DNA of 35,861 nucleotides from positions 1 through 35,861 of the forward strand of contig NEEC01000501.1 of the NCBI GenBank assembly GCA_002189035.1, in the 5' to 3' direction. Source of the DNA: Utricularia gibba. Taxonomy: Eukaryota > Streptophyta > Magnoliopsida > Lamiales > Lentibulariaceae. Position numbers and translations under genes: made by a program. Shown here piece after piece: positions 4,017 through 34,606 of this stretch (positions within the stretch are counted from its first letter, which is position 1; every line of letters starts with the position of its first letter). A model generated the notes under the pieces. That model had not been told where the DNA came from, did not search any database, and worked only from the letters and a program-made list of their open reading frames with translations.

Positions 4017-4612
4017 CAAAACGAGAAGCTGTTCCTTGAAAAACCATGTCGAACGTTAATAAATACATCACTTTCTTTGCCGGGCTACAACTTACTTTGG
4101 GCAAGGCCTAAGCTGATCTTTTTCCGGTTCCAAGTGCACCCAAAGACCGCCTTCTCAAGTATAAAGTAAGTTGTTGAAAAATCATGTGGGGTGCACGTGA
4201 CATCAATTTAAACAAATGGATCATTTTTTTAATCGATTTGCATCCAGTTGACCTCATGAGCCATACAGAATCGGGGGGACCAAGTAGCGAGACTGGCCCA
4301 CAAAACGAGAAGCTGTTCCTTGAAAAACCATGTAGGCAACACCGAAAACCGAACGTTAATAAATACATCACTTTCTTTGCCGGGCTACAACTTACTTTGG
4401 GCCAAGGCCTAAGCTGATCTTTTTCCGGTTCCAAGTGCCCCAAGACCGCCTTCTCAAGTATAAAGTAAGTTGTTGAAAAAATCATGTGGGGTGCACGTGA
4501 CATCATAATTTAAACAAATGGATCATTTTTTTAATCGATTTGCATCCAGTTGACCTCATGAGCCATACAGAATCGGGGTCAAGGACCAAGTTCCCAGCGA
4601 GACTGGCCGCCA
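4017..4612. repeat. B-B junction: two consecutive B monomers
   Basis: Unit 4017-4300 starts with gctgttcc and ends with gttgacc/catacagaatcgg, so it is B from end to end, and the next unit at 4301 again starts with gctgttcc and is B throughout. An A unit is therefore missing. The first B is only 284 bp. It lacks 16 bases after aaaccatgt (junction at 4049/4050), and its end reads cggggggaccaagtagcgag with several bases lost relative to either type. Unequal crossover or replication slippage that removed one A unit would give this order. An assembly collapse at the same spot is an equally good explanation. Confidence 0.85.
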
Positions 4613-9623: not shown

Positions 9624-9640
9624 GCCCCCGAAAACCGAAC
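9624..9640 (-). other. CENP-B-box-like 17-mer in A monomers
   Basis: Read on the minus strand this is GTTCGGTTTTCGGGGGC. Against the core of the mammalian CENP-B box (nTTCGnnnnAnnCGGGn) it matches TTCG and the last three G but has T for A at position 10 and G for C at position 13: seven of nine core bases. It requires the five-C form of cagcccccg; the common four-C copies match less well, and the B version (caacaccg) matches clearly less. I regard it as a candidate only. Confidence 0.25.
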
Positions 9641-9643
9641 GAT

Positions 9644-9649
9644 AATAAA
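9644..9649 (+). other. AATAAA in each monomer (possible poly(A) signal)
   Basis: AATAAA lies in cgatAATAAAtac of A and cgttAATAAAtac of B and is kept in nearly all units. It is lost at 11448, where the segment between cgaacg and the cactttattt is deleted, and at 5536. On the same strand TATAAA of the previous unit lies about 210 bp upstream. A six-base match in AT-rich DNA is weak evidence by itself. Confidence 0.25.
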
Positions 9650-9743
9650 TACATCACTTTATTTGCCGGACTACAACTAACTCTCGGTGCAAGCCAAACC
9701 TTACCTTTGTCCCGTTCCAGGTGCACCCAAAGACCGCCTGCTC

Positions 9744-9788
9744 AAGTATAAAGTAAGTTGTTGAAAAAATCATGTGGGGTGCACGTGA
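9744..9788. repeat. Conserved ~45-bp core shared by A and B monomers
   Basis: Offsets 159-203 of the monomer, from aagtataaagtaag to gtgcacgtga, are essentially identical in A and B, although the segments on both sides are the most diverged in the unit. Most changes seen in it across the window are single-base losses in homopolymers or the g/a change in gttgaaaaaa versus gttaaaaaaa. It contains TATAAA, an A6 tract, GTGCAC and CACGTG. It is also where the A-head/B-tail chimeras at 33057-34606 switch type. Either it is held by a binding protein or it is simply the patch homogenised most often. Coordinates given for the reference A unit. Confidence 0.75.
9747..9752 (+). promoter_or_regulatory. 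TATAAA in each monomer (possible TATA element)
   Basis: The sequence aagTATAAAgtaagttg occurs in every unit inside the conserved core. Satellites are often transcribed, and a TATA element in each unit followed by AATAAA in the next unit would allow short plus-strand transcripts. I see no initiator, upstream element or other support, so the promoter reading is speculative. Confidence 0.2.
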
Positions 9789-9789
9789 T
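9782..9789 (-). other. CACGTG E-box / CDEI-like motif
   Basis: CACGTGAT in A and CACGTGAC in B read on the minus strand as ATCACGTG and GTCACGTG, both exact matches to RTCACRTG, the yeast centromere element CDEI bound by Cbf1. CACGTG is also the classic bHLH E-box and plant G-box. I saw it intact in nearly every monomer checked. A long satellite is not a yeast point centromere, so only bHLH binding is a reasonable inference. Coordinates given for the reference A unit. Confidence 0.4.
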
Positions 9790-9825
9790 ATCGCAATTTA
9801 AACAAATGCAACATTGTATTCATCG

Positions 9826-9833
9826 ATTTGCAT
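9826..9833 (+). other. Octamer motif ATTTGCAT
   Basis: Every monomer carries atcgATTTGCATcc downstream of the variable A/B tail, even in units where neighbouring bases are lost (for example 12064 and 27173). ATTTGCAT is the exact POU-family octamer on the plus strand. Just upstream, caaatgcat or caaatgcaa gives a related but imperfect match. If the source is an animal, about 116 tandem octamers could titrate a POU factor; in other taxa the match has no known meaning. Confidence 0.4.
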
Positions 9834-9900
9834 CCTTTTGTCCTCATGAGCCATAAAGAATCGCGGGCCCGGACCAAGTTCCTAGCGAGACTGGCCGCCA

Positions 9901-10214
9901 CAAAACGAGAAGCTGTTCCTTGAAAAACCATGTAGGCAACACCGAAAACCGAACGTTAATAAATACATCACTTTCTTTGCCGGGCTACAACTTACTTTGG
10001 GCCAAGGCCTAAGCTGACCTTTTTCCGGTTCCAAGTGCACCCAAAGACCGCCTCCTCAGTATAAAGTAAGTTGTTTGAAAAAATCATGTGGGGTGCACGT
10101 GACATCGTAATTTAAACAAATGCATCATTTTTTTAATCGATTTGCATCCAGTTGACCTCATGAGCCATACAGAATCGGGGTCAAGGACCAAGTTCCCAGC
10201 GAGACTGGCCGCCA
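9901..10214. repeat. Reference full-length B monomer (314 bp)
   Basis: A complete B unit. It differs from A at gctgttcc, caacaccgaaaacc, cgttaataaat, ctttctttgccgggc, the segment cttactttgggccaaggcct with StuI AGGCCT (10005-10010), ccggttccaagtgc, gacatc in place of the EcoRV site, a run of seven to nine T before aatcgat, agttgacctcatgagcc, atacagaatcg, and ggggtcaagg in place of the ApaI palindrome. The densest A/B divergence is at offsets 92-135 and 205-290, with near identity between them. This copy has gtaat and atgcatcat in its tail, which are minority states in the left domain; the common left form is ataat with atggatcat. Confidence 0.94.
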
Positions 10215-11447
10215 CAAAACGAGAAGCGGTTCCTTGAAAAACCATGTAGGCAGCCCCCGAAAACCGAACGATAATAAATACATCACTTTATTTGCCGGAC
10301 TACAACTAACTCTCGTGCAAGCCAAACCTTACTTTGTCCCGTTCCAGGTGCACCCAAAGACCGCCTTCTCAAGTATAAAGTAAGTTGTTGAAAAAATCAT
10401 GTGGGGTGCACGTGATATCGCAATTTAAAAAATGCAACATTGTATTCATCGATTTGCATCCTTTTGTCCTCATGAGCCATAAAGAATCGCGGGCCCGGAC
10501 CAAGTTCCTAGCGAGACTGGCCGCCACAAAACGAGAAGCTGTTCCTTGAAAAACCATGTAGGCAACACGAAACCGAACGTTAATAAATACATCACTTTCT
10601 TTGCCGGGCTACAACTTACTTTGGGCCAAGGCCTAAGCTGATCTTTTTCCGGTTCCAAGTGCACCCAAGACCGCCTTCTCAAGTATAAAGTAAGTTGTTG
10701 AAAAAATCATGTGGGGTGCACGTGACATCATAATTTAAACAAATGGATCATTTTTTTTAATCGATTTGCATCCAGTTGACCTCATGAGCCATACAGAATC
10801 GGGGTCAAGGACCAAGTTCCCAGCGAGACTGGCCGCCACAAAACGAGAAGCGGTTCCTTGAAAAACCATGTAGGCAGCCCCCGAAAACCGAACGATAATA
10901 AATACATCACTTTATTTGCCGGACTACAACTAACTTTGGGCAAGCCAAAACCTTTTTCCGTTCCAGTGCCCCAAGACCGCCTCTCAAGTATAAAGTAAGT
11001 TGTTGAAAAAATCATGTGGGGTGCACGTGATATCGCAATTTAAACAAATGTTTCATCGATTTGCATCCTTTTGTCCTCATGAGCCATAAAGAATCGCGGG
11101 CCCGGACCAAGTTCCTAGCGAGACTGGCCGCCACAAAACGAGAAGCTGTTCCTTGAAAAACCATGTAGGCAACACCGAAAACCGAACGTTAATAAATACA
11201 TCACTTTCTTTGCCGGCTACAACTTACTTTGGGCCAAGGCCTAAGCTGATCTTTTTCCGGTTCCAAGTGCACCCAAAGACCGCCTTCTCAAGTATAAAGT
11301 AAGTTGTTGAAAAAATCATGTGGGGTGCACGTGACATCATAATTTAAACAAATGGATCATTTTTTTTAATCGATTTGCATCCAGTTGACCTCATGAGCCA
11401 TACAGAATCGGGGTCAAGGACCAAGTTCCCAGCGAGACTGGCCGCCA

Positions 11448-11749
11448 CAAAACGAGAAGCGGTTCCTGAAAAACCATGTAGGCAGCCCCCGAAAACCGAA
11501 CGGTTCACTTTATTTGCCGGACTACAACTAACTCTCGTGCAAGCCAAACCTTACTTTGTCCCGTTCCAGGTGCACCCAAAGACCGCCTGCTCAAGTATAA
11601 AGTAAGTTGTTGAAAAAATCATGTGGGGTGCACGTGATATCGCAATTTAAACAAATGCAACATTGTATTCATCGATTTGCATCCTTTTGTCCTCATGAGC
11701 CATAAAGAATCGCGGGCCCGGACCAAGTTCCTAGCGAGACTGGCCGCCA
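11448..11749. repeat. A unit with an internal deletion removing AATAAA
   Basis: After ccgaacg at about 11502 the unit goes straight to gttcactttatttgcc, so about a dozen bases (ataataaatacat in intact copies) are missing. The rest is a regular A (GATATC, cattgtattcatcg, CGGGCCCG). It is one of the larger private deletions in the window that is not explained by A/B mixing, so it may be a true copy-specific change. Confidence 0.7.
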
Positions 11750-14700
11750 CAAAACGAGAAGCTGTTCCTTGAAAAACCATGTAGGCAACACCGAAAACCG
11801 AACGTTAATAAATACATCACTTTCTTTGCCGGGCTACAACTTACTTTGGGCCAAGGCCTAAGCTGATCTTTTTCCGGTTCCAAGTGCACCCAAAGACCGC
11901 CTTCTCAAGTATAAAGTAAGTTGTTGAAAAAATCATGTGGGTGCACGTGACATCATAATTTAAACAAATGGATCATTTTTTTTAATCGATTTGCATCCAG
12001 TTGACCTCATGAGCCATACAGAATCGGGGTCAAGGACCAAGTTCCCAGCGAGACTGGCCGCCACAAAACGAGAAGCGGTTCCTTGAAAAACCATGTAGGC
12101 AGCCCCCGAAAACCGAACGAAATAAATACATCACTTTATTTGCCGGACTACAACTAACTTTCAAGCCAAAACCCCTTCCAGGTGCACCCAAAGACCGCCT
12201 GCTCAGTATAAAGTAAGTTGTTGAAAAAATCATGTGGGGTGCACGTGATATCAATTTAAACAAATGTCGATTTGCATCCTTTTGTCCTCATGAGCCATAA
12301 AGAATCGCGGGCCCGGACCAAGTTCCTAGCGAGACTGGCCGCCACAAAACGAGAAGCTGTTCCTTGAAAAACCATGTAGGCAACACCGAAAACCGAACGT
12401 TATAAATACATCACTTTCTTTGCCGGGCTACAACTTACTTTGGGCCAAGGCCTAAGCTGATCTTTTCCGGTTCCAAGTGCACCCAAAGACCGCCTTCTCA
12501 AGTATAAAGTAAGTTGTTGAAAAAATCATGTGGGGTGCACGTGACATCATAATTTAAACAAATGGATCATTTTTTTTAATCGATTTGCATCCAGTTGACC
12601 TCATGAGCCATACAGAATCGGGGTCAAGGACCAAGTTCCCAGCGAGACTGGCCGCCACAAACGAGAAGCGGTTCCTTGAAAAACCATGTAGGCAGCCCCC
12701 GAAAACCGAACGATAATAAATACATCACTTTATTTGCCGGACTACAACTAACTCTCGTGCAAGCCAAACCTTACCTTTGTCCCGTTCCAGGTGCACCCAA
12801 AGACCGCCTTCTCAAGTATAAAGTAAGTTGTTGAAAAAATCATGTGGGGTGCACGTGATATCGCAATTTAAACAAATGCAACATTGTATTCATCGATTTG
12901 CATCCTTTTGTCCTCATGAGCCATAAAGAATCGCGGGCCCGGACCAAGTTCCTAGCGAGACTGGCCGCCACAAAACGAGAAGCTGTTCCTTGAAAAACCA
13001 TGTAGGCAACACCGAAAACCGAACGTTAATAAATACATCACTTTCTTTGCCGGGCTACAACTTACTTTGGGCCAAGGCCTAAGCTGATCTTTTTCCGGTT
13101 CCAAGTGCCCCAAAGACCGCCTTCTCAAGTATAAAGTAAGTTGTTGAAAAAATCATGTGGGGTGCACGTGACATCATAATTTAAACAAATGGATCATTTT
13201 TTTTAATCGATTTGCATCCAGTTGACCTCATGAGCCATACAGAATCGGGGTCAAGGACCAAGTTCCCAGCGAGACTGGCCGCCACAAAACGAGAAGCGGT
13301 TCCTTGAAAAACCATGTAGGCAGCCCCGAAAACCGAACGATAATAAATACATCACTTTATTTGCCGGACTACAACTAACTCTCGTGCAAGCCAAACCTTA
13401 CCTTTGTCCCGTTCCAGGTGCACCCAAAGACCGCCTGCTCAAGTATAAAGTAAGTTGTTGAAAAAATCATGTGGGGTGCACGTGATATCGCAATTTAAAC
13501 AAATGCAAATCGATTTGCATCCTTTTGTCCTCATGAGCCATAAAGAATCGCGGGCCCGGACCAAGTTCCTAGCGAGACTGGCCGCCACAAAACGAGAAGC
13601 TGTTCCTTGAAAAACCATGTAGGCAACACGAAAACCGAACGTTAATAAATACATCACTTTCTTTGCCGGGCTACAACTTACTTTGGGCCAAGGCCTAAGC
13701 TGATCTTTTTCCGGTTCCAAGTGCACCCAAAGACCGCCTTCTCAAGTATAAAGTAAGTTGTTGAAAAAATCATGTGGGGTGCACGTGACATCATAATTTA
13801 AACAAATGGATCATTTTTTTTAATCGATTTGCATCCAGTTGACCTCATGAGCCATACAGAATGACCAAGTTCCCAGCGAGACTGGCCGCCACAAAACGAG
13901 AAGCGGTTCCTTGAAAAACCATGTAGGCAGCCCCCGAAAACCGAACGATAATAAATACATCACTTTATTTGCCGGACTACAACTTACTTTCCAAGCTACC
14001 TTTTTCCGTTCCAAGTGCCCCCAAGACCGCCTGCTCAGTATAAAGTAGAAAAAATCATGTGGGGTGCACGTGATATCGCAATTTAAACAAATGAATCGAT
14101 TTGCATCCTTTTGTCCTCATGAGCCATAAAGAATCGCGGGCCCGGACCAAGTTCCTAGCGAGACTGGCCGCCACAAAACGAGAAGCTGTTCCTTGAAAAA
14201 CCATGTAGGCAACACGAAAACCGAACGTTAATAAATACATCACTTTCTTTGCCGGGCTACAACTTACTTTGGGCCAAGGCCTAAGCTGATCTTTTTCCGG
14301 TTCCAAGTGCCCCAAAGACCGCCTTCTCAAGTATAAAGTAAGTTGTTGAAAAAATCATGTGGGGTGCACGTGACATCATAATTTAAACAAATGGATCATT
14401 TTTTTTAATCGATTTGCATCCAGTTGACCTCATGAGCCATACAGAATCGGGGTCAAGGACCAAGTTCCCAGCGAGACTGGCCGCCACAAAACGAGAAGCG
14501 GTTCCTTGAAAAACCATGTAGGCAGCCCCGAAAACCGAACGATAATAAATACATCACTTTATTTGCCGGACTACAACTAACTTCTGCAAGCCAAACCTTA
14601 CCTTTGTCCCGTTCCAGGTGCACCCAAAGACCGCCTCTCAAGTATAAAGTAAGTTGTTGAAAAAATCATGTGGGGTGCACGTGATATCGCAATTTAAACA

Positions 14701-17700
14701 AATGCAACATTGTATTCATCGATTTGCATCCTTTTGTCCTCATGAGCCATAAAGAATCGCGGGCCCGGACCAAGTTCCTAGCGAGACTGGCCGCCACAAA
14801 ACGAGAAGCTGTTCCTTGAAAAACCATGTAGGCAACACCGAAAACCGAACGTTAATAAATACATCACTTTCTTTGCCGGGCTACAACTTACTTTGGGCCA
14901 AGGCCTAAGCTGATCTTTTTCCGGTTCCAAGTGCACCCAAGACCGCCTTCTCAAGTATAAAGTAAGTTGTTGAAAAAATCATGTGGGGTGCACGTGACAT
15001 CATAATTTAAACAAATGGATCATTTTTTTTAATCGATTTGCATCCAGTTGACCTCATGAGCCATACAGAATCGGGTCAAGGACCAAGTTCCCAGCGAGAC
15101 TGGCCGCCACAAAACGAGAAGCGGTTCCTTGAAAAACCATGTAGGCAGCCCCCGAAAACCGAACGATAATAAATACATCACTTTATTTGCCGGACTACAA
15201 CTAACTCTCGTGCAAGCCAAACCTTACCTTTGTCCGTTCCAGGTGCACCCAAAGACCGCCTCTCAAGTATAAAGTAAGTTGTTGAAAAAATCATGTGGGG
15301 TGCACGTGATATCGCAATTTAAACAAATGCAACATTGTATTCATCGATTTGCATCCTTTTGTCCTCATGAGCCATAAAGAATCGCGGGCCCGGACCAAGT
15401 TCCTAGCGAGACTGGCCGCCACAAAACGAGAAGCTGTTCCTTGAAAAACCATGTAGGCAACACCGAAAACCGAACGTTAATAAATACATCACTTTCTTTG
15501 CCGGGCTACAACTTACTTTGGGCCAAGGCCTAAGCTGATCTTTTTCCGGTTCCAAGTGCACCCAAAGACCGCCTTCTCAAGTATAAAGTAAGTTGTTGAA
15601 AAAATCATGTGGGGTGCACGTGACATCATAATTTAAACAAATGGATCATTTTTTTTAATCGATTTGCATCCAGTTGACCTCATGAGCCATACAGAATCGG
15701 GGTCAAGGACCAAGTTCCCAGCGAGACTGGCCGCCACAAAACGAGAAGCGGTTCCTTGAAAAACCATGTAGGCAGCCCCCGAAAACCGAACGATAATAAA
15801 TACATCACTTTATTTGCCGGACTACAACTAAAAGCCAAACTTACCTTTGTCCGTTCCAGGTGCACCCAAAGACCGCCTGCTCAAGTATAAAGTAAGTTGT
15901 TAAAAAATCATGTGGGGTGCACGTGATATCGCAATTTAAACAAATGATCGATTTGCATCCTTTTGTCCTCATGAGCCATAAAGAATCGCGGGCCCGGACC
16001 AAGTTCCTAGCGAGACTGGCCCCACAAAACGAGAAGCTGTTCCTTGAAAAACCATGTAGGCAACACGAAAACCGAACGTTAATAAATACATCACTTTCTT
16101 TGCCGGGCTACAACTTACTTTGGGCCAAGGCCTAAGCTGATCTTTTTCCGGTTCCAAGTGCACCCAAAGACCGCCTTCTCAAGTATAAAGTAAGTTGTTG
16201 AAAAAATCATGTGGGGTGCACGTGACATCATAATTTAAACAAATGGATCATTTTTTTTTAATCGATTTGCATCCAGTTGACCTCATGAGCCATACAGAAT
16301 CGGGGTCAAGGACCAAGTTCCCAGCGAGACTGGCCGCCACAAAACGAGAAGCGGTTCCTTGAAAAACCATGTAGGCAGCCCCCGAAAACCGAACGATAAT
16401 AAATACATCACTTATTTGCCGGACTACAACTAACTCTCGGTGCAAGCCAAACCTTACCTTTGTCCCGTTCCAGGTGCACCCAAAGACCGCCTGCTCAAGT
16501 ATAAAGTAAGTTGTTGAAAAAATCATGTGGGGTGCACGTGATATCGCAATTTAAACAAATGCAACATTGTATTCATCGATTTGCATCCTTTTGTCCTCAT
16601 GAGCCATAAAGAATCGCGGGCCCGGACCAAGTTCCTAGCGAGACTGGCCGCCACAAAACGAGAAGCTGTTCCTTGAAAAACCATGTAGGCAACACCGAAA
16701 ACCGAACGTTAATAAATACATCACTTTTTTGCCGGGCTACAACTTACTTTGGGCCAAGGCCTAAGCTGATCTTTTTCCGGTTCCAAGTGCACCCAAAGAC
16801 CGCCTTCTCAAGTATAAAGTAAGTTGTTGAAAAAATCATGTGGGGTGCACGTGACATCATAATTTAAACAAATGCATCATTTTTTTTAATCGATTTGCAT
16901 CCAGTTGACCTCATGAGCCATACAGAATCGGGGTCAAGGACCAAGTTCCCAGCGAGACTGGCCGCCACAAAACGAGAAGCGGTTCCTTGAAAAACCATGT
17001 AGGCAGCCCCGAAAACCGAACGATAATAAATACATCACTTTATTTGCCGGACTACAACTAACTCTCGGTGCAAGCCAAACCTTACCTTTGTCCCGTTCCA
17101 GGTGCACCCAAAGACCGCCTGCTCAAGTATAAAGTAAGTTGTTGAAAAAATCATGTGGGGTGCACGTGATATCGCAATTTAAACAAATGCAACATTGTAT
17201 TCATCGATTTGCATCCTTTTGTCCTCATGAGCCATAAAGAATCGCGGGCCCGGACCAAGTTCCTAGCGAGACTGGCCGCCACAAAACGAGAAGCTGTTCC
17301 TGAAAAACCATGTAGGCAACACCGAAAACCGAACGTTAATAAATACATCACTTTCTTTGCCGGGCTACAACTTACTTTGGGCCAAGGCCTAAGCTGATCT
17401 TTTTCCGGTTCCAAGTGCCCCCAAGACCGCCTCTCAAGTATAAAGTAAGTTTTTGAAAAAATCATGTGGGGTGCACGTGACATCATAATTTAAACAAATG
17501 GATCATTTTTTTTAATCGATTTGCATCCAGTTGACCTCATGAGCCATACAGAATCGGGGTCAAGGACCAAGTTCCCAGCGAGACTGGCCGCCAAAACGAG
17601 AAGCGGTTCCTTGAAAAACCATGTAGGCAGCCCCCGAAAACCGAACGATAATAAATACATCACTTTATTTGCCGGACTACAACTAACTCTGGGCAAGCCA

Positions 17701-18827
17701 AAACCTTTTCCGTTCCAAGTGCCCCAAGACCGCCTCCTCAAGTATAAAGGTTGTTAAAAAATCATGTGGGTGCACGTGATATCGCAATTTAAACAAATGC
17801 AACATTTTTTTTAATCGATTTGCATCCTTTTGTCCTCATGAGCCATAAAGAATCGCGGGCCCGGACCAAGTTCCTAGCGAGACTGGCCGCCACAAAACGA
17901 GAAGCTGTTCCTTGAAAAACCATGTAGGCAACACGAAAACCGAACGTTAATAAATACATCACTTTCTTTGCCGGGCTACAACTTACTTTGGGCCAAGGCC
18001 TAAGCTGACTTTTTCCGGTTCCAAGTGCCCCAAGACCGCCTTCTCAAGTATAAAGTAAGTTGTTGAAAAAATCATGTGGGGTGCACGTGACATCATAATT
18101 TAAACAAATGGATCATTTTTTTTAATCGATTTGCATCCAGTTGACCTCATGAGCCATACAGAATCGGGTCAAGGACCAAGTTCCCAGCGAGACTGGCCGC
18201 CACAAAACGAGAAGCGGTTCCTTGAAAAACCATGTAGGCAGCCCCCGAAAACCGAACGATAATAAATACATCACTTTATTTGCCGGACTACAACTAACTC
18301 TCGGTGCAAGCCAAACCTTACCTTTGTCCCGTTCCAGGTGCACCCAAAGACCGCCTGCTCAAGTATAAAGTAAGTTGTTGAAAAAATCATGTGGGTGCAC
18401 GTGATATCGCAATTTAAACAAATGCAACATTGTATTCATCGATTTGCATCCTTTTGTCCTCATGAGCCATAAAGAATCGCGGGCCCGGACCAAGTTCCTA
18501 GCGAGACTGGCCGCACAAAACGAGAAGCTGTTCCTTGAAAAACCATGTAGGCAACACCGAAAACCGAACGTTAATAAATACATCACTTTCTTTGCCGGGC
18601 TACAACTTACTTTGGGCCAAGGCCTAAGCTGATCTTTTTCCGGTTCCAAGTGCCCCAAAGACCGCCTTCTCATGTATAAAGTAAGTTGTTAAAAAAATCA
18701 TGTGGGGTGCACGTGACATCATAATTTAAACAAATGGATCATTTTTTTTAATCGATTTGCATCCAGTTGACCTCATGAGCCATACAGAATCGGGTCAAGG
18801 ACCAAGTTCCAGCGAGACTGGCCGCCA

Positions 18828-19128
18828 CAAAACGAGAAGCGGTTCCTTGAAAAACCATGTAGGCAGCCCCCGAAAACCGAACGATAATAAATACATCACT
18901 TTATTTGCCGGACTACAACTAACTCTCGGTGCAAGCCAAACCTTACCTTTGTCCCGTTCCAGGTGCCAAAGACAAGTATAAAGTAAGTTTGAAAAAATCA
19001 TGTGGGGTGCACGTGATATCGCAATTTAAACAAATGCAACATTGTATTCATCGATTTGCATCCTTTTGTCCTCATGAGCCATAAAGAATCGCGGGCCCGG
19101 ACCAAGTTCCTAGCGAGACTGGCCGCCA
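18828..19128. repeat. A unit with deletions flanking the conserved core
   Basis: The segment normally reading gtgcacccaaagaccgcctg then ctcaag is contracted to gtgccaaagacaag around 18964-18975, and gttgttgaaaaa is shortened to gtttgaaaaa just after. The remainder is regular A with GATATC and the cattgtattcatcg tail. Private deletion or local consensus error. Confidence 0.65.
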
Positions 19129-22100
19129 CAAAACGAGAAGCTGTTCCTTGAAAAACCATGTAGGCAACACGAAAACCGAACGTTAATAAATACATCACTT
19201 TCTTTGCCGGGCTACAACTTACTTTGGGCCAAGGCCTAAGCTGATCTTTTTCCGGTTCCAAGTGCACCCAAAGACCGCCTTCTCAAGTATAAAGTAAGTT
19301 GTTGAAAAAATCATGTGGGGTGCACGTGACATCATAATTTAAACAAATGGATCATTTTTTTTAATCGATTTGCATCCAGTTGACCTCATGAGCCATACAG
19401 AATCGGGGTCAAGGACCAAGTTCCCAGCGAGACTGGCCGCCACAAACGAGAAGCGTTCCTGAAAAACCATGTAGGCAGCCCCGAAAACCGAACGATAATA
19501 AATACATCACTTTATTTGCCGGACTACAACTAACTCTTGCAAGCCAAACCTTACCTTTGTCCCGTTCCAGTGCACCCAAAGACCGCCTGCTCAAGTATAA
19601 AGTAAGTTGTTGAAAAAAATGTGGGGTGCACGTGATATCGCAATTTAAACAAATGCAACATTGTATTCATCGATTTGCATCCTTTTGTCCTCATGAGCCA
19701 TAAAGAATCGCGGGCCCGGACCAAGTTCCTAGCGAGACTGGCCGCCACAAAACGAGAAGCTGTTCCTTGAAAAACCATGTAGGCAACACCGAAAACCGAA
19801 CGTTAATAAATACATCACTTTCTTTGCCGGGCTACAACTTACTTTGGGCCAAGGCCTAAGCTGATCTTTTTCCGGTTCCAAGTGCACCCAAGACCGCCTT
19901 CTCAAGTATAAAGTAAGTTTTGAAAAAATCATGTGGGGTGCACGTGACATCATAATTTAAACAAATGGATCATTTTTTTTAATCGATTTGCATCCAGTTG
20001 ACCTCATGAGCCATACAGAATCGGGGTCAAGGACCAAGTTCCCAGCGAGACTGGCCCAAAACGAGAAGCGGTTCCTTGAAAAACCATGTAGGCAGCCCCC
20101 GAAAACCGAACGATAATAAATACATCACTTTATTTGCCGGACTACAACTTACTTTGGGCAAGCCAAACCTACCTTTTTCCGTTCCAGGTGCACCCAAGAC
20201 CGCCTGCTCAAGTATAAAGTAAGTTGTTAAAAAATCATGTGGGGTGCACGTGATATCGCAATTTAAACAAATGCATTTTTTTTAATCGATTTGCATCCTT
20301 TTGTCCTCATGAGCCATAAAGAATCGCGGGCCGGACCAAGTTCCTAGCGAGACTGGCCGCCACAAAACGAGAAGCTGTTCCTTGAAAAACCATGTAGGCA
20401 ACACCGAAAACCGAACGTTAATAAATACATCACTTTCTTTGCCGGGCTACAACTTACTTTGGGCCAAGGCCTAAGCTGATCTTTTTCCGGTTCCAAGTGC
20501 ACCCAAAGACCGCCTTCTCAAGTATAAAGTAAGTTGTTGAAAAAATCATGTGGGGTGCACGTGACATCATAATTTAAACAAATGGATCATTTTTTTTAAT
20601 CGATTTGCATCCAGTTGACCTCATGAGCCATACAGAATCGGGGTCAAGGACCAAGTTCCCAGCGAGACTGGCCGCCACAAAACGAGAAGCGGTTCCTTGA
20701 AAAACCATGTAGGCAGCCCCCGAAAACCGAACGATAATAAATACATCACTTTATTTGCCGGACTACAACTAACTCTCGTGCAAGCCAAACCTTACCTTTG
20801 TCCCGTTCCAGGTGCACCCAAAGACCGCCTGCTCAAGTATAAAGTAAGTTGTTGAAAAATCATGTGGGGTGCACGTGATATCGCAATTTAAACAAATGCA
20901 ACATTGTATTCATCGATTTGCATCCTTTTGTCCTCATGAGCCATAAAGAATCGCGGGCCCGGACCAAGTTCCTAGCGAGACTGGCCGCCACAAAACGAGA
21001 AGCTGTTCCTTGAAAAACCATGTAGGCAACACCGAAAACCGAACGTTAATAAATACATCACTTTCTTTGCCGGGCTACAACTTACTTTGGGCCAAGGCCT
21101 AAGCTGATCTTTTTCCGGTTCCAAGTGCCCCAAAGACCGCCTTCTCAAGTATAAAGTAAGTTGTTGAAAAAATCATGTGGGGTGCACGTGACATCATAAT
21201 TTAAACAAATGGATCATTTTTTTTAATCGATTTGCATCCAGTTGACCTCATGAGCCATACAGAATCGGGGTCAAGGACCAAGTTCCCAGCGAGACTGGCC
21301 GCCACAAAACGAGAAGCGGTTCCTTGAAAAACCATGTAGGCAGCCCCCGAAAACCGAACGATAATAAATACATCACTTTATTTGCCGGACTACAACTAAC
21401 TCTCGGTGCAAGCCAAACCTTACCTTTGTCCGTTCCAGTGCACCCAAGACCGCCTCCTCAAGTATAAAGTAAGTTGTTGAAAAAATCATGTGGGGTGCAC
21501 GTGATATCGCAATTTAAACAAATGCAACATTGTATTCATCGATTTGCATCCTTTTGTCCTCATGAGCCATAAAGAATCGCGGCCCGGACCAAGTTCCTAG
21601 CGAGACTGGCCGCCACAAAACGAGAAGCTGTTCCTTGAAAAACCATGTAGGCAACACCGAAAACCGAACGTTAATAAATACATCACTTTCTTTGCCGGGC
21701 TACAACTTACTTTGGGCCAAGGCCTAAGCTGATCTTTTTCCGGTTCCAAGTGCACCCAAGACCGCCTCTCAAGTATAAAGTAAGTTGTTGAAAAAATCAT
21801 GTGGGTGCACGTGACATCATAATTTAAACAAATGGATCATTTTTTTTAATCGATTTGCATCCAGTTGACCTCATGAGCCATACAGAATCGGGGTCAAGGA
21901 CCAAGTTCCCAGCGAGACTGGCCCCACAAAACGAGAAGCGGTTCCTTGAAAAACCATGTAGGCAGCCCCCGAAAACCGAACGATAATAAATACATCACTT
22001 TATTTGCCGGACTACAACTAACTCTTGGGCAAGCCAAAGCTTACCTTTTTTCCGTTCCAAGTGCACCCAAAGACCGCCTCTCAAGTATAAAGTAAGTTGT

Positions 22101-22551
22101 TAAAAAATCATGTGGGGTGCACGTGATATCGCAATTTAAACAAATGCAACATTTTATTTAATCGATTTGCATCCTTTTGTCCTCATGAGCCATAAAGAAT
22201 CGCGGGCCCGGACCAAGTTCCTAGCGAGACTGGCCGCCACAAAACGAGAAGCTGTTCCTTGAAAAACCATGTAGGCAACACCGAAAACGAACGTTAATAA
22301 ATACATCACTTTCTTTGCCGGGCTACAACTTACTTTGGGCCAAGGCCTAAGCTGATCTTTTTCCGGTTCCAAGTGCACCCAAAGACCGCCTTCTCAAGTA
22401 TAAAGTAAGTTGTTGAAAAAATCATGTGGGGTGCACGTGACATCATAATTTAAACAAATGGATCATTTTTTTAATCGATTTGCATCCAGTTGACCTCATG
22501 AGCCATACAGAATCGGGTCAAGGACCAAGTTCCCAGCGAGACTGGCCGCCA

Positions 22552-23126: not shown

Positions 23127-26100
23127 CAAAACGAGAAGCTGTTCCTTGAAAAACCATGTAGGCAACACCGAAAACCGAACGTAATAAATACATCACTTTC
23201 TTTGCCGGGCTACAACTTACTTTGGCCAAGGCCTAAGCTGATCTTTTTCCGGTTCCTGCACCCAAAGACCGCCTTCTCAAGTATAAAGTAAGTTGTTGAA
23301 AAAATCATGTGGGGTGCACGTGACATCATAATTTAAACAAATGCATCATTTTTTTTAATCGATTTGCATCCAGTTGACCTCATGAGCCATACAGAATCGG
23401 GGTCAAGGACCAAGTTCCCAGCGAGACTGGCCGCCACAAAACGAGAAGCGGTTCCTTGAAAAACCATGTAGGCAGCCCCGAAAACCGAACGATAATAAAT
23501 ACATCACTTTATTTGCCGGACTACAACTACTTTGGGCAAGCCAAACCTTTGTCCCGTTCCAGTGCCCCCAAGACCGCCTCCTCAAGTATAAAGTAAGTTG
23601 TTGAAAAAATCATGTGGGGTGCACGTGATATCGTAATTTAAACAAATGCATCATTTTTTTTAATCGATTTGCATCCTTTGTCCTCATGAGCCATAAAGAA
23701 TCGCGGGCCCGGACCAAGTTCCTAGCGAGACTGGCCGCCACAAAACGAGAAGCTGTTCCTTGAAAAACCATGTAGGCACACCGAAAACCGAACGTTAATA
23801 AATACATCACTTTCTTTGCCGGGCTACAACTTACTTTGGGCCAAGGCCTAAGCTGACCTTTTTCCGTTCCAAGTGCCCCAAGACCGCCTTCTCAAGTATA
23901 AAGTAAGTTGTTAAAAAAATCATGTGGGGTGCACGTGACATCGTAATTTAAACAAATGCATCATTTTTTTTAATCGATTTGCATCCAGTTGACCTCATGA
24001 GCCATACAGAATCGGGGTCAAGGACCAAGTTCCCAGCGAGACTGGCCGCCACAAAACGAGAAGCGTTCCTTGAAAAACCATGTAGGCAGCCCCCCGAAAA
24101 CCGAACGATAATAAATACATCACTTTATTTGCCGGACTACAACTAACTCTCGGTGCAAGCCAAACCTTACCTTTGTCCCGTTCCAGGTGCACCCAAAGAC
24201 CGCCTGCTCAAGTATAAAGTAAGTTGTTGAAAAAATCATGTGGGTGCACGTGATATCGCAATTTAAACAAATGCATCATTGTATTCATCGATTTGCATCC
24301 TTTGTCCTCATGAGCCATAAAGAATCGCGGGCCCGGACCAAGTTCCTAGCGAGACTGGCCGCCACAAAACGAGAAGCTGTTCCTTGAAAAACCATGTAGG
24401 CAACACCGAAAACCGAACGTTAATAAATACATCACTTTCTTTGCCGGGCTACAACTTACTTTGGGCCAAGGCCTAAGCTGACTTTTTCCGGTTCCAAGTG
24501 CACCCAAAGACCGCTTCTCAAGTATAAAGTAAGTTGTTGAAAAAATCATGTGGGGTGCACGTGACATCATAATTTAAACAAATGCATCATTTTTTTTAAT
24601 CGATTTGCATCCAGTTGACCTCATGAGCCATACAGAATCGGGGTCAAGGACCAAGTTCCCAGCGAGACTGGCCGCCACAAAACGAGAAGCGGTTCCTTGA
24701 AAAACCATGTAGGCAGCCCCCGAAAACCGAACGATAATAAATACATCACTTTATTTGCCGGACTACAACTAACTCTCGGTGCAAGCCAAACCTTACCTTT
24801 GTCCCGTTCCAGGTGCACCCAAAGACCGCCTGCTCAAGTATAAAGTAAGTTGTTGAAAAAATCATGTGGGGTGCACGTGATATCGCAATTTAAACAAATG
24901 CAACATTGTATTCATCGATTTGCATCCTTTGTCCTCATGAGCCATAAAGAATCGCGGGCCCGGACCAAGTTCCTAGCGAGACTGGCCGCCACAAAACGAG
25001 AAGCTGTTCCTTGAAAAACCATGTAGGCAACACCGAAAACCGAACGTTAATAAATACATCACTTTCTTTGCCGGGCTACAACTTACTTTGGGCCAAGGCC
25101 TAAGCTGACTTTTTCCGGTTCCAAGTGCACCCAAAGACCGCCTCTCAAGTATAAAGTAAGTTGTTGAAAAAATCATGTGGGGTGCACGTGACATCATAAT
25201 TTAAACAAATGCATCATTTTTTTTAATCGATTTGCATCCAGTTGACCTCATGAGCCATACAGAATCGGGGTCAAGGACCAAGTTCCCAGCGAGACTGGCC
25301 GCCACAAAACGAGAAGCGGTTCCTTGAAAAACCATGTAGGCAGCCCCCGAAAACCGAACGATAATAAATACATCACTTTATTTGCCGGACTACAACTAAC
25401 TAAGCCAAACCTTTGTCCGTTCCAGGTGCACCCAAAGACCGCCTGCTCAAGTATAAAGTAAGTTGTTGAAAAAATCATGTGGGGTGCACGTGATATCGCA
25501 ATTTAAACAAATGCAACATTTTTTAATCGATTTGCATCCTTTTGTCCTCATGAGCCATAAAGAATCGCGGGCCCGGACCAAGTTCCTAGCGAGACTGGCC
25601 GCCACAAAACGAGAAGCTGTTCCTTGAAAAACCATGTAGGCAACACCGAAAACCGAACGTTAATAAATACATCACTTTCTTTGCCGGGCTACAACTTACT
25701 TTGGGCCAAGGCCTAAGCTGACTTTTTCCGGTTCCAAGTGCACCCAAAGACCGCCTTCTCAAGTATAAAGTAAGTTGTTGAAAAAAATCATGTGGGGTGC
25801 ACGTGACATCATAATTTAAACAAATGCATCATTTTTTTTAATCGATTTGCATCCAGTTGACCTCATGAGCCATACAGAATCGGGGTCAAGGACCAAGTTC
25901 CCAGCGAGACTGGCCGCCACAAAACGAGAAGCGGTTCCTTGAAAAACCATGTAGGCAGCCCCCGAAAACCGAACGATAATAAATACATCACTTTATTTGC
26001 CGGACTACAACTAACTCTCGGTGCAAGCCAAACCTTACCTTTGTCCCGTTCCAGGTGCACCCAAAGACCGCCTGCTCAAGTATAAAGTAAGTTGTTGAAA

Positions 26101-29100
26101 AAATCATGTGGGGTGCACGTGATATCGCAATTTAAACAAATGCAACATTGTATTCATCGATTTGCATCCTTTTGTCCTCATGAGCCATAAAGAATCGCGG
26201 GCCGGACCAAGTTCCTAGCGAGACTGGCCGCCACAAAACGAGAAGCTGTTCCTTGAAAAACCATGTAGGCAACACCGAAAACCGAACGTTAATAAATACA
26301 TCACTTTCTTTGCCGGGCTACAACTTACTTTGGCCAAGGCCTAAGCTGACTTTTTCCGGTTCCAAGTGCACCCAAAGACCGCCTTCTCAAGTATAAAGTA
26401 AGTTGTTGAAAAAATCATGTGGGGTGCACGTGACATCATAATTTAAACAAATGCATCATTTTTTTTTAATCGATTTGCATCCAGTTGACCTCATGAGCCA
26501 TACAGAATCGGGGTCAAGGACCAAGTTCCCAGCGAGACTGGCCGCCACAAAACGAGAAGCGGTTCCTTGAAAAACCATGTAGGCAGCCCCGAAAACCGAA
26601 CGATAATAAATACATCACTTTATTTGCCGGACTACAACTAACTCTCGGGCAAGCCAAACCTTACCTTTGTCCCGTTCCAGTGCACCCAAAGACCGCCTGC
26701 TCAAGTATAAAGTAAGTTGTTAAAAAAATCATGTGGGGTGCACGTGAATCGTAATTTAAACAAATGCAACATTTTTTTTCATCGATTTGCATCCTTTTGA
26801 CCTCATGAGCCATAAAGAATCGCGGGCCCGGACCAAGTTCCTAGCGAGACTGGCCGCCACAAAACGAGAAGCTGTTCCTTGAAAAACCATGTAGGCAACA
26901 CCGAAAACCGAACGTTAATAAATACATCACTTTCTTTGCCGGGCTACAACTTACTTTGGGCAAGGCCTAAGCTGACCTTTTTCCGGTTCCAAGTGCCCCA
27001 AAGACCGCCTCCTCAAGTATAAAGTAAGTTGTTAAAAAAATCATGTGGGGTGCACGTGACATCATAATTTAAACAAATGCATCATTTTTTTTAATCGATT
27101 TGCATCCAGTTGACCTCATGAGCCATACAGAATCGGGGTCAAGGACCAAGTTCCCAGCGAGACTGGCCGCCACAAAACGAGAAGCGGTTCCTTGAAAAAC
27201 CATGTAGGCAGCCCCGAAAACCGAACGATAATAAATACATCACTTTATTTGCCGGACTACAACTAACTCTCGGTGCAAGCCAAACCTTACCTTTGTCCCG
27301 TTCCAGGTGCACCCAAAGACCGCCTGCTCAAGTATAAAGTAAGTTGTTGAAAAAATCATGTGGGGTGCACGTGATATCGCAATTTAAACAAATGCATCAT
27401 TGCGATTTGCATCCTTGTCCTCATGAGCCATAAAGAATCGCGGGCCCGGACCAAGTTCCTAGCGAGACTGGCCGCCACAAAACGAGAAGCTGTTCCTTGA
27501 AAAACCATGTAGGCAACACCGAAAACCGAACGTTAATAAATACATCACTTTTTTGCCGGGCTACAACTTACTTTGGGCCAAGGCCTAAGCTGACTTTTTC
27601 CGGTTCCAAGTGCACCCAAAGACCGCCTCTCAAGTATAAAGTAAGTTGTTGAAAAAATCATGTGGGGTGCACGTGACATCATAATTTAAACAAATGCATC
27701 ATTTTTTTTAATCGATTTGCATCCAGTTGACCTCATGAGCCATACAGAATCGGGGTCAAGGACCAAGTTCCCAGCGAGACTGGCCGCCACAAAACGAGAA
27801 GCGGTTCCTTGAAAAACCATGTAGGCAGCCCCCGAAAACCGAACGATAATAAATACATCACTTTATTTGCCGGACTACAACTAACTCTCGTGCAAGCCAA
27901 ACCTTACCTTTGTCCCGTTCCAGGTGCACCCAAAGACCGCCTGCTCAAGTATAAAGTAAGTTGTTGAAAAAATCATGTGGGGTGCACGTGATATCGCAAT
28001 TTAAACAAATGCAACATTGTATTCATCGATTTGCATCCTTTTGTCCTCATGAGCCATAAAGAATCGCGGGCCCGGACCAAGTTCCTAGCGAGACTGGCCG
28101 CCACAAAACGAGAAGCTGTTCCTTGAAAAACCATGTAGGCAACACCGAAAACCGAACGTTAATAAATACATCACTTTCTTTGCCGGGCTACAACTTACTT
28201 TGGGCAAGGCCTAAGCTGATCTTTTTCCGGTTCCAAGTGCACCCAAAGACCGCCTCTCAAGTATAAAGTAAGTTGTTGAAAAAATCATGTGGGGTGCACG
28301 TGACATCATAATTTAAACAAATGCATCATTTTTTTTAATCGATTTGCATCCAGTTGACCTCATGAGCCATACAGAATCGGGGTCAAGGACCAAGTTCCCA
28401 GCGAGACTGGCCGCCACAAAACGAGAAGCGGTTCCTTGAAAAACCATGTAGGCAGCCCCCGAAAACCGAACGATAATAAATACATCACTTTATTTGCCGG
28501 ACTACAACTAACTCTCTGCAAGCCAAACCTTACCTTTGTCCCGTTCCAGTGCACCCAAAGACCGCCTGCTCAAGTATAAAGTAAGTTGTTGAAAAAATCA
28601 TGTGGGGTGCACGTGATATCGCAATTTAAACAAATGCAACATTGTATTCATCGATTTGCATCCTTTTGTCCTCATGAGCCATAAAGAATCGGGGGCCCGG
28701 ACCAAGTTCCTAGCGAGACTGGCCGCCACAAAACGAGAAGCTGTTCCTTGAAAAACCATGTAGGCAACACCGAAAACCGAACGTTAATAAATACATCACT
28801 TTCTTTGCCGGGCTACAACTTACTTTGGGCCAAGGCCTAAGCTGACCTTTTCCGGTTCCAAGTGCCCCCAAGACCGCCTCCTCAAGTATAAAGTAAGTTG
28901 TTAAAAAATCATGTGGGGTGCACGTGACATCGTAATTTAAACAAATGCATCATTTTTTTTAATCGATTTGCATCCAGTTGACCTCATGAGCCATACAGAA
29001 TCGGGGTCAAGGACCAAGTTCCCAGCGAGACTGGCCGCCACAACGAGAAGCGGTTCCTTGAAAAACCATGTAGGCAGCCCCGAAAACCGAACGATAATAA

Positions 29101-31537
29101 ATACATCACTTTATTTGCCGGACTACAACTAACTCTCGGTGCAAGCCAAACCTTACCTTTGTCCCGTTCCAGGTGCACCCAAAGACCGCCTGCTCAAGTA
29201 TAAAGTAAGTTGTTGAAAAAATCATGTGGGGTGCACGTGATATCGCAATTTAAAAAAAATGCATCATTTTTTTTAATCGATTTGCATCCCCTCATGAGCC
29301 ATAAAGAATCGCGGGCCCGGACCAAGTTCCTAGCGAGACTGGCCGCCACAAAACGAGAAGCTGTTCCTTGAAAAACCATGTAGGCAACACCGAAAACCGA
29401 ACGTTAATAAATACATCACTTTCTTTGCCGGGCTACAACTTACTTTGGGCCAAGGCCTAAGCTGATCTTTTTCCGGTTCCAAGTGCACCCAAAGACCGCC
29501 TCTCAAGTATAAAAGTAAGTTGTTGAAAAAATCATGTGGGGTGCACGTGACATCATAATTTAAACAAATGCATCATTTTTTTTAATCGATTTGCATCCAG
29601 TTGACCTCATGAGCCATACAGAATCGGGGTCAAGGACCAAGTTCCCAGCGAGACTGGCCGCCACAAAACGAGAAGCGGTTCCTTGAAAAACCATGTAGGC
29701 AGCCCCGAAAACCGAACGATAATAAATACATCACTTTATTTGCCGGACTACAACTAACTCTCGGTGCAAGCCAAACCTTACCTTTGTCCCGTTCCAGGTG
29801 CACCCAAAGACCGCCTGCTCAAGTATAAAGTAAGTTGTTGAAAAAATCATGTGGGGTGCACGTGATATCGCAATTTAAACAAATGCAACATTGTATTCAT
29901 CGATTTGCATCCTTTTGTCCTCATGAGCCATAAAGAATCGCGGGCCGGACCAAGTTCCTAGCGAGACTGGCCGCCACAAAACGAGAAGCTGTTCCTTGAA
30001 AAACCATGTAGGCACACCCGAAAACCGAACGTTAATAAATACATCACTTTCTTTGCCGGGCTACAACTTACTTTGGGCCAAGGCCTAAGCTGATCTTTTT
30101 CCGGTTCCAAGTGCACCCAAAGACCGCCTTCTCAAGTATAAAGTAAGTTGTTGAAAAAATCATGTGGGGTGCACGTGACATCATAATTTAAACAAATGCA
30201 TCATTTTTTTTAATCGATTTGCATCCAGTTGACCTCATGAGCCATACAGAATCGGGGTCAAGGACCAAGTTCCCAGCGAGACTGGCCGCCACAAAACGAG
30301 AAGCGGTTCCTTGAAAAACCATGTAGGCAGCCCCCGAAAACCGAACGATAATAAATACATCACTTTATTTGCCGACTACAACTAACTCTCGGTGCAAGCC
30401 AAACCTTACCTTTGTCCCGTTCCAGGTGCACCCAAAGACCGCCTGCTCAAGTATAAAGTAAGTTGTTGAAAAAATCATGTGGGGTGCACGTGATATCAAT
30501 TTAAACAAATGCATCATTGTATTCATCGATTTGCATCCTTTTGTCCTCATGAGCCATAAAGAATCGCGGGCCCGGACCAAGTTCCTAGCGAGACTGGCCG
30601 CCACAAAACGAGAAGCTGTTCCTTGAAAAACCATGTAGGCACACCGAAAACCGAACGTTAATAAATACATCACTTTCTTTGCCGGGCTACAACTTACTTT
30701 GGGCCAAGCCTAAGCTGACCTTTTTCCGGTTCCAAGTGCCCCAAGACCGCCTCCTCAAGTATAAAGTAAGTTGTTAAAAAATCATGTGGGGTGCACGTGA
30801 CATCATAATTTAAACAAATGCATCATTTTTTTTAATCGATTTGCATCCAGTTGACCTCATGAGCCATACAGAATCGGGGTCAAGGACCAAGTTCCCAGCG
30901 AGACTGGCCGCCACAAAACGAGAAGCGGTTCCTTGAAAAACCATGTAGGCAGCCCCCGAAAACCGAACGATAATAAATACATCACTTTATTTGCCGGACT
31001 ACAACTAACTCTCGGTGCAAGCCAAACCTTACCTTTGTCCCGTTCCAGGTGCACCCAAAGACCGCCTGCTCAAGTATAAAGTAAGTTGTTGAAAAAATCA
31101 TGTGGGGTGCACGTGATATAATTTAAACAAATGCATCATTTTTTTTAATCGATTTGCATCCAGTTGACCTCATGAGCCATAAAGAATCGCGGGCCCGGAC
31201 CAAGTTCCTAGCGAGACTGGCCGCCACAAAACGAGAAGCTGTTCCTTGAAAAACCATGTAGGCAACACCGAAAACCGAACGTTAATAAATACATCACTTT
31301 CTTTGCCGGGCTACAACTTACTTTGGCCAAGCCTAAGCTGACCTTTTTCCGTTCCAAGTGCACCCAAAGACCGCCTCTCAAGTATAAAGTAAGTTGTTGA
31401 AAAAATCATGTGGGGTGCACGTGACATCATAATTTAAACAAATGCATCATTTTTTTTAATCGATTTGCATCCAGTTGACCTCATGAGCCATACAGAATCG
31501 GGGTCAAGGACCAAGTTCCCAGCGAGACTGGCCGCCA
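23127..31537. repeat. Right domain: A/B dimers with the GCATC type of B and a visible six-monomer period
   Basis: B starts: 23127, 23741, 24365, 24992, 25605, 26234, 26860, 27478, 28104, 28729, 29349, 29977, 30604, 31227. A starts: 23437, 24052, 24678, 25305, 25920, 26548, 27173, 27790, 28417, 29041, 29664, 30292, 30914. Every B here, and every B to the end of the window, reads atgcatcat (17 of 17). The B units at 24365, 24992, 25605, 26234 and 27478 share ctgactttttcc, missing one base of the left-domain ctgatcttttt. Variant A units recur at 25305, 27173, 29041 and 30914, and variant B units at 26860, 28729 and 30604, giving steps of 1868-1875 bp. Confidence 0.9.
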
Positions 31538-32433: not shown

Positions 32434-33056
32434 CAAAACGAGAAGCGGTTCCTTGAAAAACCATGTAGGCAGCCCCAAAACCGAACGATAATAAATACAT
32501 CACTTTATTTGCCGGACTACAACTAACTCTCGGTGCAAGCCAAACCTTACCTTTGTCCCGTTCCAGGTGCACCCAAAGACCGCCTGCTCAAGTATAAAGT
32601 AAGTTGTTGAAAAAATCATGTGGGGTGCACGTGATATCGCAATTTAAACAAATGCAACATTGTATTTCGATTTGCATCCTTTTGTCCTCATGAGCCATAA
32701 AGAATCGCGGGCCGGACCAAGTTCCTAGCGAGACTGGCCGCCACAAAACGAGAAGCTGTTCCTTGAAAAACCATGTAGGCAACACCGAAAACCGAACGTT
32801 AATAAATACATCACTTTCTTTGCCGGGCTACAACTTACTTTGGGCCAAGGCCTAAGCTGACTTTTTCCGGTTCCAAGTGCCCCCAAGACCGCCTCCTCAA
32901 GTATAAAGTAAGTTGTTAAAAAAATCATGTGGGGTGCACGTGACATCATAATTTAAACAAATGCATCATTTTTTTTAATCGATTTGCATCCAGTTGACCT
33001 CATGAGCCATACAGAATCGGGGTCAAGGACCAAGTTCCCAGCGAGACTGGCCGCCA
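32434..33056. repeat. Single intact A/B dimer between two recombined blocks
   Basis: A at 32434 (gcggttcc, tctcggtgcaagcc, GATATC, ttttgtcctc; one palindrome base lost, giving cgcgggccgg) is followed by B at 32744 (gctgttcc, ggccaaggcct, gacatcataat, atgcatcat, gttgacc). The B carries the B' markers gtgcccccaag and gttaaaaaaatc. This is the only regular dimer between the mosaic block to its left and the chimeric run to its right. Confidence 0.85.
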
Positions 33057-34606
33057 CAAAACGAGAAGCGGTTCCTTGAAAAACCATGTAGGCAGCCCCC
33101 GAAAACCGAACGATAATAAATACATCACTTTATTTGCCGGACTACAAACTCTCGGTGCAAGCCAAACCTTACCTTTGTCCCGTTCCAGGTGCACCCAAAG
33201 ACCGCCTGCTCAAGTATAAAGTAAGTTGTTGAAAAAATCATGTGGGGTGCACGTGACATCATAATTTAAACAAATGCATCATTTTTTTTAATCGATTTGC
33301 ATCCAGTTGACCTCATGAGCCATAAGAATCGGGGTCAAGGACCAAGTTCCCAGCGAGACTGGCCGCCACAAAACGAGAAGCGGTTCCTTGAAAAACCATG
33401 TAGGCAGCCCCCGAAAACCGAACGATAATAAATACATCACTTTATTTGCCGGACTACAACTAACTTCGGGCAAGCCAAACTTACCTTTCCCGTTCCAGGT
33501 GCACCCAAGACCGCCTGCTCAAGTATAAAGTAAGTTGTTGAAAAAATCATGTGGGGTGCACGTGACATCATAATTTAAAAATGCATCATTTTTTTTAATC
33601 GATTTGCATCCAGTTGACCTCATGAGCCATACAGAATCGGGGTCAAGGACCAAGTTCCAGCGAGACTGGCCGCCAAAACGAGAAGCGGTTCCTTGAAAAA
33701 CCATGTAGGCAGCCCCCGAAAACCGAACGATAATAAATACATCACTTTATTTGCCGGACTACAACTAACTCTCGGCAAGCCAAACCTTACCTTTGTCCCG
33801 TTCCAGGTGCACCCAAAGACCGCCTGCTCAAGTATAAAGTAAGTTGTTAAAAAATCATGTGGGGTGCACGTGACATCAAATTTAAACAAATGCATCATTT
33901 TTTTTAATCGATTTGCATCCAGTTGACCTCATGAGCCATACAGAATCGGGGTCAAGGACCAAGTTCCCAGCGAGACTGGCCGCCACAAAACGAGAAGCGG
34001 TTCCTTGAAAAACCATGTAGGCAGCCCCCGAAAACCGAACGATAATAAATACATCACTTTATTTGCCGGACTACAACTAACTCTCGGCAAGCCAAACTTA
34101 CCTTTGTCCGTTCCAGGTGCACCCAAAGACCGCCTGCTCAAGTATAAAGTAAGTTGTTGAAAAAATCATGTGGGGTGCACGTGACATCATAATTTAAACA
34201 AATGCATCATTTTTTTTAATCGATTTGCATCCAGTTGACCTCATGAGCCATACAGAATCGGGGTCAAGGACCAAGTTCCCAGCGAGACTGGCCGCCAAAA
34301 AACGAGAAGCGGTTCCTTGAAAAACCATGTAGGCAGCCCCCGAAAACCGAACGATAATAAATACATCACTTTATTTGCCGGACTACAACTAACTCTCGGC
34401 AAGCCAAACTTACCTTTGTCCCGTTCCAGGTGCACCCAAAGACCGCCTGCTCAAGTATAAAGTAAGTTGTTGAAAAAATCATGTGGGGTGCACGTGACAT
34501 CATAATTTAAACAAATGCATCATTTTTTTAATCGATTTGCATCCAGTTGACCTCATGAGCCATAAAGAATCGGGGCGGACCAAGTTCCCAGCGAGACTGG
34601 CCGCCA
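33057..34606. repeat. Monomeric run of five A-head/B-tail chimeric units
   Basis: Units 33057, 33369, 33674, 33986 and 34306 all have an A-type first two thirds (gcggttcc, cagcccc(c), cgataataaat, ccggactacaa, gttccaggtgcaccc, gcctgctcaag) joined to a B-type last third (gacatcataat or gacatcaaat, atgcatcat, T-run, agttgacc, mostly acagaatcggggtcaagg). The switch lies inside the ~45-bp block identical in A and B that ends in gtgcacgtga. No EcoRV, ApaI or StuI site occurs in this run, unlike the rest of the array. It looks like one recombinant monomer that then amplified in tandem with a ~310-bp period. Unit 34306 ends in a mixed aaagaatcggggcggacc. Confidence 0.9.

Follow-up and report, generated by a model that had tools for sequence, protein, structure and literature searches.

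A 313-bp satellite of Utricularia gibba built on an A/B dimer, with a small local six-monomer block

Contig NEEC01000501.1 (C101) of the Utricularia gibba assembly GCA_002189035.1 is a complete contig of 35,861 bases, in an assembly of 100,091,633 bases and 516 contigs. The whole contig is referred to here as the window, and it is occupied by one tandem satellite. Segmentation divides it into 116 monomers of about 313 bp, all in a single orientation, and a 37-bp end piece. Clustering separates the monomers into 62 A-like and 54 B-like units, which alternate along the array. The mean identity is 0.970 within A, 0.990 within B and 0.894 between A and B, and over the 116 monomers it is 0.897 between neighbours (lag 1) and 0.978 between units two apart (lag 2). 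The stable unit of the array is the A/B dimer, of about 626 bp. Its alternation slips at 4017/4301, at 22552/22855 and at several more places after 31538. The long head-to-tail array and the many copies found genome-wide are those of satellite DNA: a conserved 29-mer has 12,246 matches in the genome at up to 3 mismatches, which at one match per 313-bp monomer corresponds to about 3.8 Mb, or roughly 3.8% of the assembly. Within the monomer, the first and the second half show a weak similarity (A, 0.548 against a shuffled mean of 0.487 and a maximum of 0.545; B, 0.555 against a mean of 0.489 and a maximum of 0.537; 200 shuffles each), and therefore the 313-bp monomer is probably an old doubling of a unit of about 157 bp.

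On this dimer the original prediction had placed a six-monomer period, read from two sets of variant units between 25305 and 31226: the A' units, in which part of an A monomer is B-like or shortened, and the B' units, which are B monomers carrying a set of marker words. The hexamer had been proposed as the last amplified unit. The features of the window are the following:

1-35861, + strand: head-to-tail satellite over the whole contig (Tandem Repeats Finder period 313, 116.1 copies; segmentation; lag identities)
4301-22551, + strand: left domain of regular A/B dimers, with deletion-rich A' units that carry B-like patches and recur irregularly (about six intervals equal six monomers); no lag-6 excess in the substitution scan
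23437-23740, + strand: A' unit one exact period (1868 bp) ahead of the one at 25305, missing from the earlier listing
24052-31537, + strand: right domain of A/B dimers with a local lag-6 excess (scan and lag test)
25305-31226, + strand: flagged segment, 19 monomers, about three hexamer copies (lag 6 above lags 2 and 4)
25305-25604, + strand: A' unit with a shortened middle and a B-like T-run; the middle is a shortened A and not a blend
26548-26859, + strand: A unit with a T-run tail, out of step with the six-monomer period
26860-27172, + strand: B' unit, monomer 88
27173-27477, + strand: A' unit with the T-run tail deleted
28729-29040, + strand: B' unit, monomer 94
29041-29348, + strand: A' unit, tail with a B-like patch and deletions
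30604-30913, + strand: B' unit, monomer 100
30914-31226, + strand: A' unit, A nearly intact, with a B-like T-run patch and 3 deletions
32744-33056, + strand: fourth B' unit, monomer 107, seven monomers past the third
33057-34297, + strand: four A>B chimeric monomers in a row (5' part A, 3' part B) that break the dimer alternation, by unit classification; the unit at 34298 is left outside the count

The variant units of the flagged segment lie where they had been placed. The A' starts at 25305, 27173, 29041 and 30914 are real and their steps of 1868, 1868 and 1873 bp are exact, as are the B' starts at 26860, 28729 and 30604 with their steps of 1869 and 1875 bp. Only 4 of the 116 monomers (88, 94, 100 and 107) carry an exact copy of the full B' haplotype (cctcctcaag...gttaaaaaa), and they are spaced by 6, 6 and 7 monomers. 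Taken singly, on the other hand, its markers are less specific than had been claimed: gtgcccc(c)aag is present in 14 monomers of C101, cctcctcaag in 9 and gttaaaaaa in 19, and the B' unit at 26860 is without gtgcccc(c)aag. Each B' unit of the segment had also been described as lying directly before an A', which is the order found in the hexamer. The A' unit at 25305 has no preceding B'.

The evidence that carries the hexamer is the identity between units at increasing lags. The window-wide lag identities come from the segmentation. For the other identity tests the units were placed in a cyclic alignment with an A/B composite, which has 316 columns, and A and B differ at 39 of them. The tests are given with gaps and, as "substitutions only", with gaps not counted. 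The p values of the lag test are obtained by shuffling the unit order and compare lag 6 with lags 2, 4, 8 and 10. Between 25305 and 31226 the substitution identity is 0.9860 at lag 2, 0.9854 at lag 4, 0.9915 at lag 6, 0.9873 at lag 8, 0.9852 at lag 10 and 0.9887 at lag 12. Lag 6 exceeds lags 2 and 4 by about 0.5%, over about three copies. The 10 A units and the 9 B units of this segment give the six-monomer period independently of each other, with lag-6 p values of 0.009 and 0.014, respectively, for substitutions only and of 0.083 and 0.010 when gaps are included. For lags 6 and 12 jointly, p is 0.063 (substitutions only) and 0.51 (gaps counted) for A, and 0.009 and 0.013 for B. The best partner is found at lag 6 for 6.7 of the 19 units, where 3.1 are expected. 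Over 24052-31500 the substitution test gives p = 0.056 for A and 0.006 for B, and a scan with windows of 19 monomers and 500 shuffles per domain detects the lag-6 excess in the right domain (24 units, p = 0.002). The signal of this domain sits in few columns, namely the T-run columns in A and two B columns in which every third B unit (3, 6 and 9) has a C.

Over the whole window the mean identity falls from 0.9778 at lag 2 to 0.9736 at lag 4 and 0.9708 at lag 6, and the median rises slightly (0.9863, 0.9869 and 0.9887, respectively). The lower means at the longer lags are attributed to the phase slips. The comparison of lag 6 with lags 2 and 4 thus yields a local peak in 25305-31226, but none in the window-wide means. 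In the left domain the scan (59 units) gives no significant lag-6 excess (p = 0.34). Between 4301 and 22300 the lag-6 p value for A is 0.085 with substitutions and 0.008 with gaps counted, and B has no lag-6 excess (p = 0.29 and 0.56, respectively). The best partners of this domain are found at lag 8 (8.4 units, 3.6 expected), with 3.4 units at lag 6 (3.7 expected). A window-wide hexamer was rejected on the fall of the means over lags 2, 4 and 6 and on the left scan. The A' units, which had been described as recurring mostly at every third dimer in the left domain, recur irregularly there, with about six intervals of six monomers.

It may be asked whether the entire array was last amplified as a hexamer, which phase slips and consensus errors now hide in the left domain. 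The gap-counted value for A in the left domain speaks for it, and so does one measure of the A' spacing. In this measure, the score of an A' unit is the number of bases that are B-like or missing in its two most divergent stretches, with a cut-off of 4 or more. Over C101 1-31500, 8 of the 20 A' intervals are six monomers long (null 2.55, p = 0.0014). With an alternative A' rule, however, the six-monomer intervals of C101 are 3 of 15 (null 1.91, p = 0.30). By the first score, six-monomer intervals amount to 2 of 4 in 24052-31500 alone (p = 0.12), 2 of 4 in C7:18323-33600 (p = 0.07) and 0 of 6 in C7:107-9400. In the contigs other than C101 a single interval of 32 equals six (null 3.3, p = 0.97) and nine equal four (null 5.2, p = 0.053); a six-unit A' spacing as a general rule was rejected on this count. 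The exact word for the junction between the B-like T-run and A occurs at only 5 genomic places, too few for a spacing test. The spacing result hinges on the definition of A', and the measure is not relied on.

The other arrays of the same satellite bear on this question as well. For comparison, C7 was taken whole, C17 over 30 kb and C10 over 10 kb. A further 13 pieces, each 8.3-10 kb long, came from twelve additional contigs and from the C17 end. In C7:18000-31300 a slight lag-6 excess is present (substitutions; A p = 0.011, B p = 0.044), but the best partners of C7 are at lag 4 (8.4 against 3.8 expected). C33 (1-10000, 23 units) leans towards a 6-mer, with identities of 0.9687 at lag 6, 0.9659 at lag 9, 0.9642 at lag 2 and 0.9581 at lag 4; this hexamer is invisible in the count of A' intervals because each of its copies has A' at two of the three A positions. 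No lag-6 excess is seen in C17 or in the first part of C7. In C17:2938-16900 (reverse strand, oriented coordinates) a clear 5-mer of about 1.55 kb is found, with identities of 0.9756 at lag 5 and 0.9593 at lag 10, against 0.9486, 0.9115 and 0.9137 at lags 2, 4 and 6. This 5-mer is a stronger multimer than the flagged hexamer. The following part, C17:16908-29900, is a plain dimer in which the even lags from 2 to 14 all lie at 0.9930-0.9938. In C479 and C487, A' occurs once per four monomers. The period varies from one array to another, and a period of six is not the rule. Echoes in C33 and in part of C7 notwithstanding, a hexamer amplified last over the entire array is unlikely, considering the left scan, the lag-8 partners and these other periods.

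Further forms of the satellite were observed in the same panel. In C33:1-10000 each hexamer-like block has two A units that are nearly intact but for a B-like tract at the centre. C85:5001-15000 consists of near-uniform A>B chimeras (27 of 33 units, lag-1 identity 0.987). C8:1-10000 holds a diverged version of the satellite, with 406 substitutions at invariant columns in 32 units and an identity that is slightly raised at lags 4 and 8 (0.932) relative to lag 2 (0.899). In C15:4001-14000 a block of about 5.0 kb is present twice (piece coordinates 1-4998 and 4979-9995; 95.1% identity). It is composed of satellite interrupted by a gag fragment, whose reading frame is of the copia type (PF14223, E 2.5e-27). 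This duplication indicates that blocks far longer than the hexamer are also copied.

A different explanation concerns the quality of the consensus, namely that the A' and B' markers are entirely artefacts of noisy reads and that no hexamer exists. At the invariant columns of the composite, deletions number 524 over the 116 units and substitutions 38. There are also 32 insertions, and 337 of the 429 deletion runs are of a single base. Deletions so far above substitutions suggest a poor consensus. In C101 the deletions are commoner at the columns that differ between A and B (3.5% vs 1.6%). The middle segments of 12 out of 15 hand-picked A' units are closer to B than randomly shortened A (p < 0.05), and those at 15737, 17592 and 25305 are not blend-like. 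To judge from the sequence, the blend pattern would fit a consensus of mixed A-like and B-like noisy reads, and in the left domain the shortened A' units are not to be trusted as they stand. On the other hand, the deletion rate is 1.4-2.0% across runs of 1 to 4 equal bases, so that homopolymer errors were rejected as the chief source of the deletions. The signal of the right domain is carried by substitutions, and the exact B' haplotype occurs at 57 places on 26 contigs. Near-intact A' units (six or fewer deletions) make up 15 of 60 over 17 classified stretches, in C33 (7), C101 (3), C59 (2), C60 (1), C170 (1) and C487 (1). The near-intact A/B chimeras in C33 show that such variants exist. An origin of all the markers in the consensus is accordingly very improbable.

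The least probable explanation, by a little, is that A' and B' are real but scattered by chance and that the regular steps in 25305-31226 are a picked-out coincidence: it draws on the rank of the flagged window given below, on the irregular B' elsewhere (3 of the 31 gaps within contigs are of about 1870 bp, and C101 accounts for two of these and C33 for the third) and on an A' spacing that varies with its definition, but the same period is obtained independently from A and from B, lag 12 is also raised and the right-domain scan is significant.

The array is best described, with fair though not full assurance, as a dimeric satellite with short, shifting multimer blocks, of which 24052-31226 is one local hexamer block. 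Several observations weigh against this description. The hexamer stands on about three copies and a few columns, and both the lag test and the scan were run on the same data that prompted the claim. By lag-6 contrast the flagged window ranks only 8th of 98, and among lags 2-10 lag 6 is the best in only 22 of the 98 windows, with lag 2 best in 43, lag 8 in 16, lag 10 in 14 and lag 4 in 3. The window of highest contrast starts at 1245 and has its best lag at 2; its contrast is taken to stem from a phase slip. The A' spacing in 24052-31500 alone is not significant (p = 0.12-0.43). The blending is not uniform either, as deletions at the A/B-different columns are not in excess in C17 (1.27% vs 1.50%) or in C7 (3.26% vs 3.11%), and the A' middle at 25305, inside the flagged segment, is among those that do not resemble a blend.

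Of the original prediction, then, the six-monomer period over the A/B dimer survives as a local one, at about 24052-31226, by the lag tests, the best partners and the scan, with an echo in C33; elsewhere it is weak. The hexamer as the last amplified unit was not upheld, owing to the weak and short signal of about three copies, the failure of the left scan, the periods of four and five in other contigs and the deletion-type differences of A'.

Unequal crossing-over and gene conversion are known to yield chimeric monomers and varied multimer lengths. Acting between out-of-register copies, they may have generated the chimeric A/B monomers seen here and copied blocks of a few monomers, a step that we infer from the pattern. 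Multimer periods of 4, 5 and 6 monomers would then arise and fade from place to place. The stretch 24052-31226 would hold about three copies of a block ABABA'B, with B' immediately ahead of A'. Many of the A' units in the left domain would have been further distorted by a consensus that mixes A-like and B-like reads.

In human alpha satellite, near-identical higher-order units extend over long arrays. The likeness lies in monomer types of fixed order repeated as a larger unit, whereas the six-unit excess of C101 is about 0.5% and limited to a short stretch. Plant centromeric satellites have units of 150-180 bp, which the possible 157-bp sub-unit of the 313-bp monomer resembles, but the C101 satellite is at most a candidate for a centromeric one. 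Three exact satellite words have no match in C1-C6, the first contig among the matches listed being C7, and mismatched or diverged copies may lie in C1-C6. C3 has telomere repeats close to its start and again at 5.347 Mb, and among the matches listed it is the only contig with both. As a side observation, the cox1 gene on C515 (183547-185854) is split in two by about 960 bases, which presumably represent the cox1 intron of flowering plants. Five weaker cox1-like pieces, with or without stops, lie on other contigs and are probably nuclear copies of mitochondrial DNA.

A plant satellite with higher-order repeat blocks is Palv156 in Populus, which is likewise a tandem satellite whose blocks hold several monomer variants in fixed order (PMC12046899). 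It differs in sequence and monomer length, and C101 is dominated by the dimer, with about three copies of the hexamer. A literature search, with most subscription journals outside its scope, found no paper on a 313-bp satellite in U. gibba.

The array is an ordinary plant-type dimeric satellite with a small local hexamer block. For faint multimer periods in older long-read assemblies, it means that substitution markers are to be separated from consensus-type deletions. The contigs compared form a small panel of one satellite with differing multimer lengths, useful for studies of block copying in satellites. The putative centromeric regions of U. gibba have been described as being without satellite repeats (PMC8333044). 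The present satellite amounts to several Mb, is found here on small contigs only and is split into array-specific blocks of 4, 5 and 6 monomers. It might, as a long shot, be centromeric DNA that was left unassembled for the remaining chromosomes. A centromeric role, if shown, would give the satellite more importance in view of that description, and U. gibba would carry both satellite and satellite-free centromeres.

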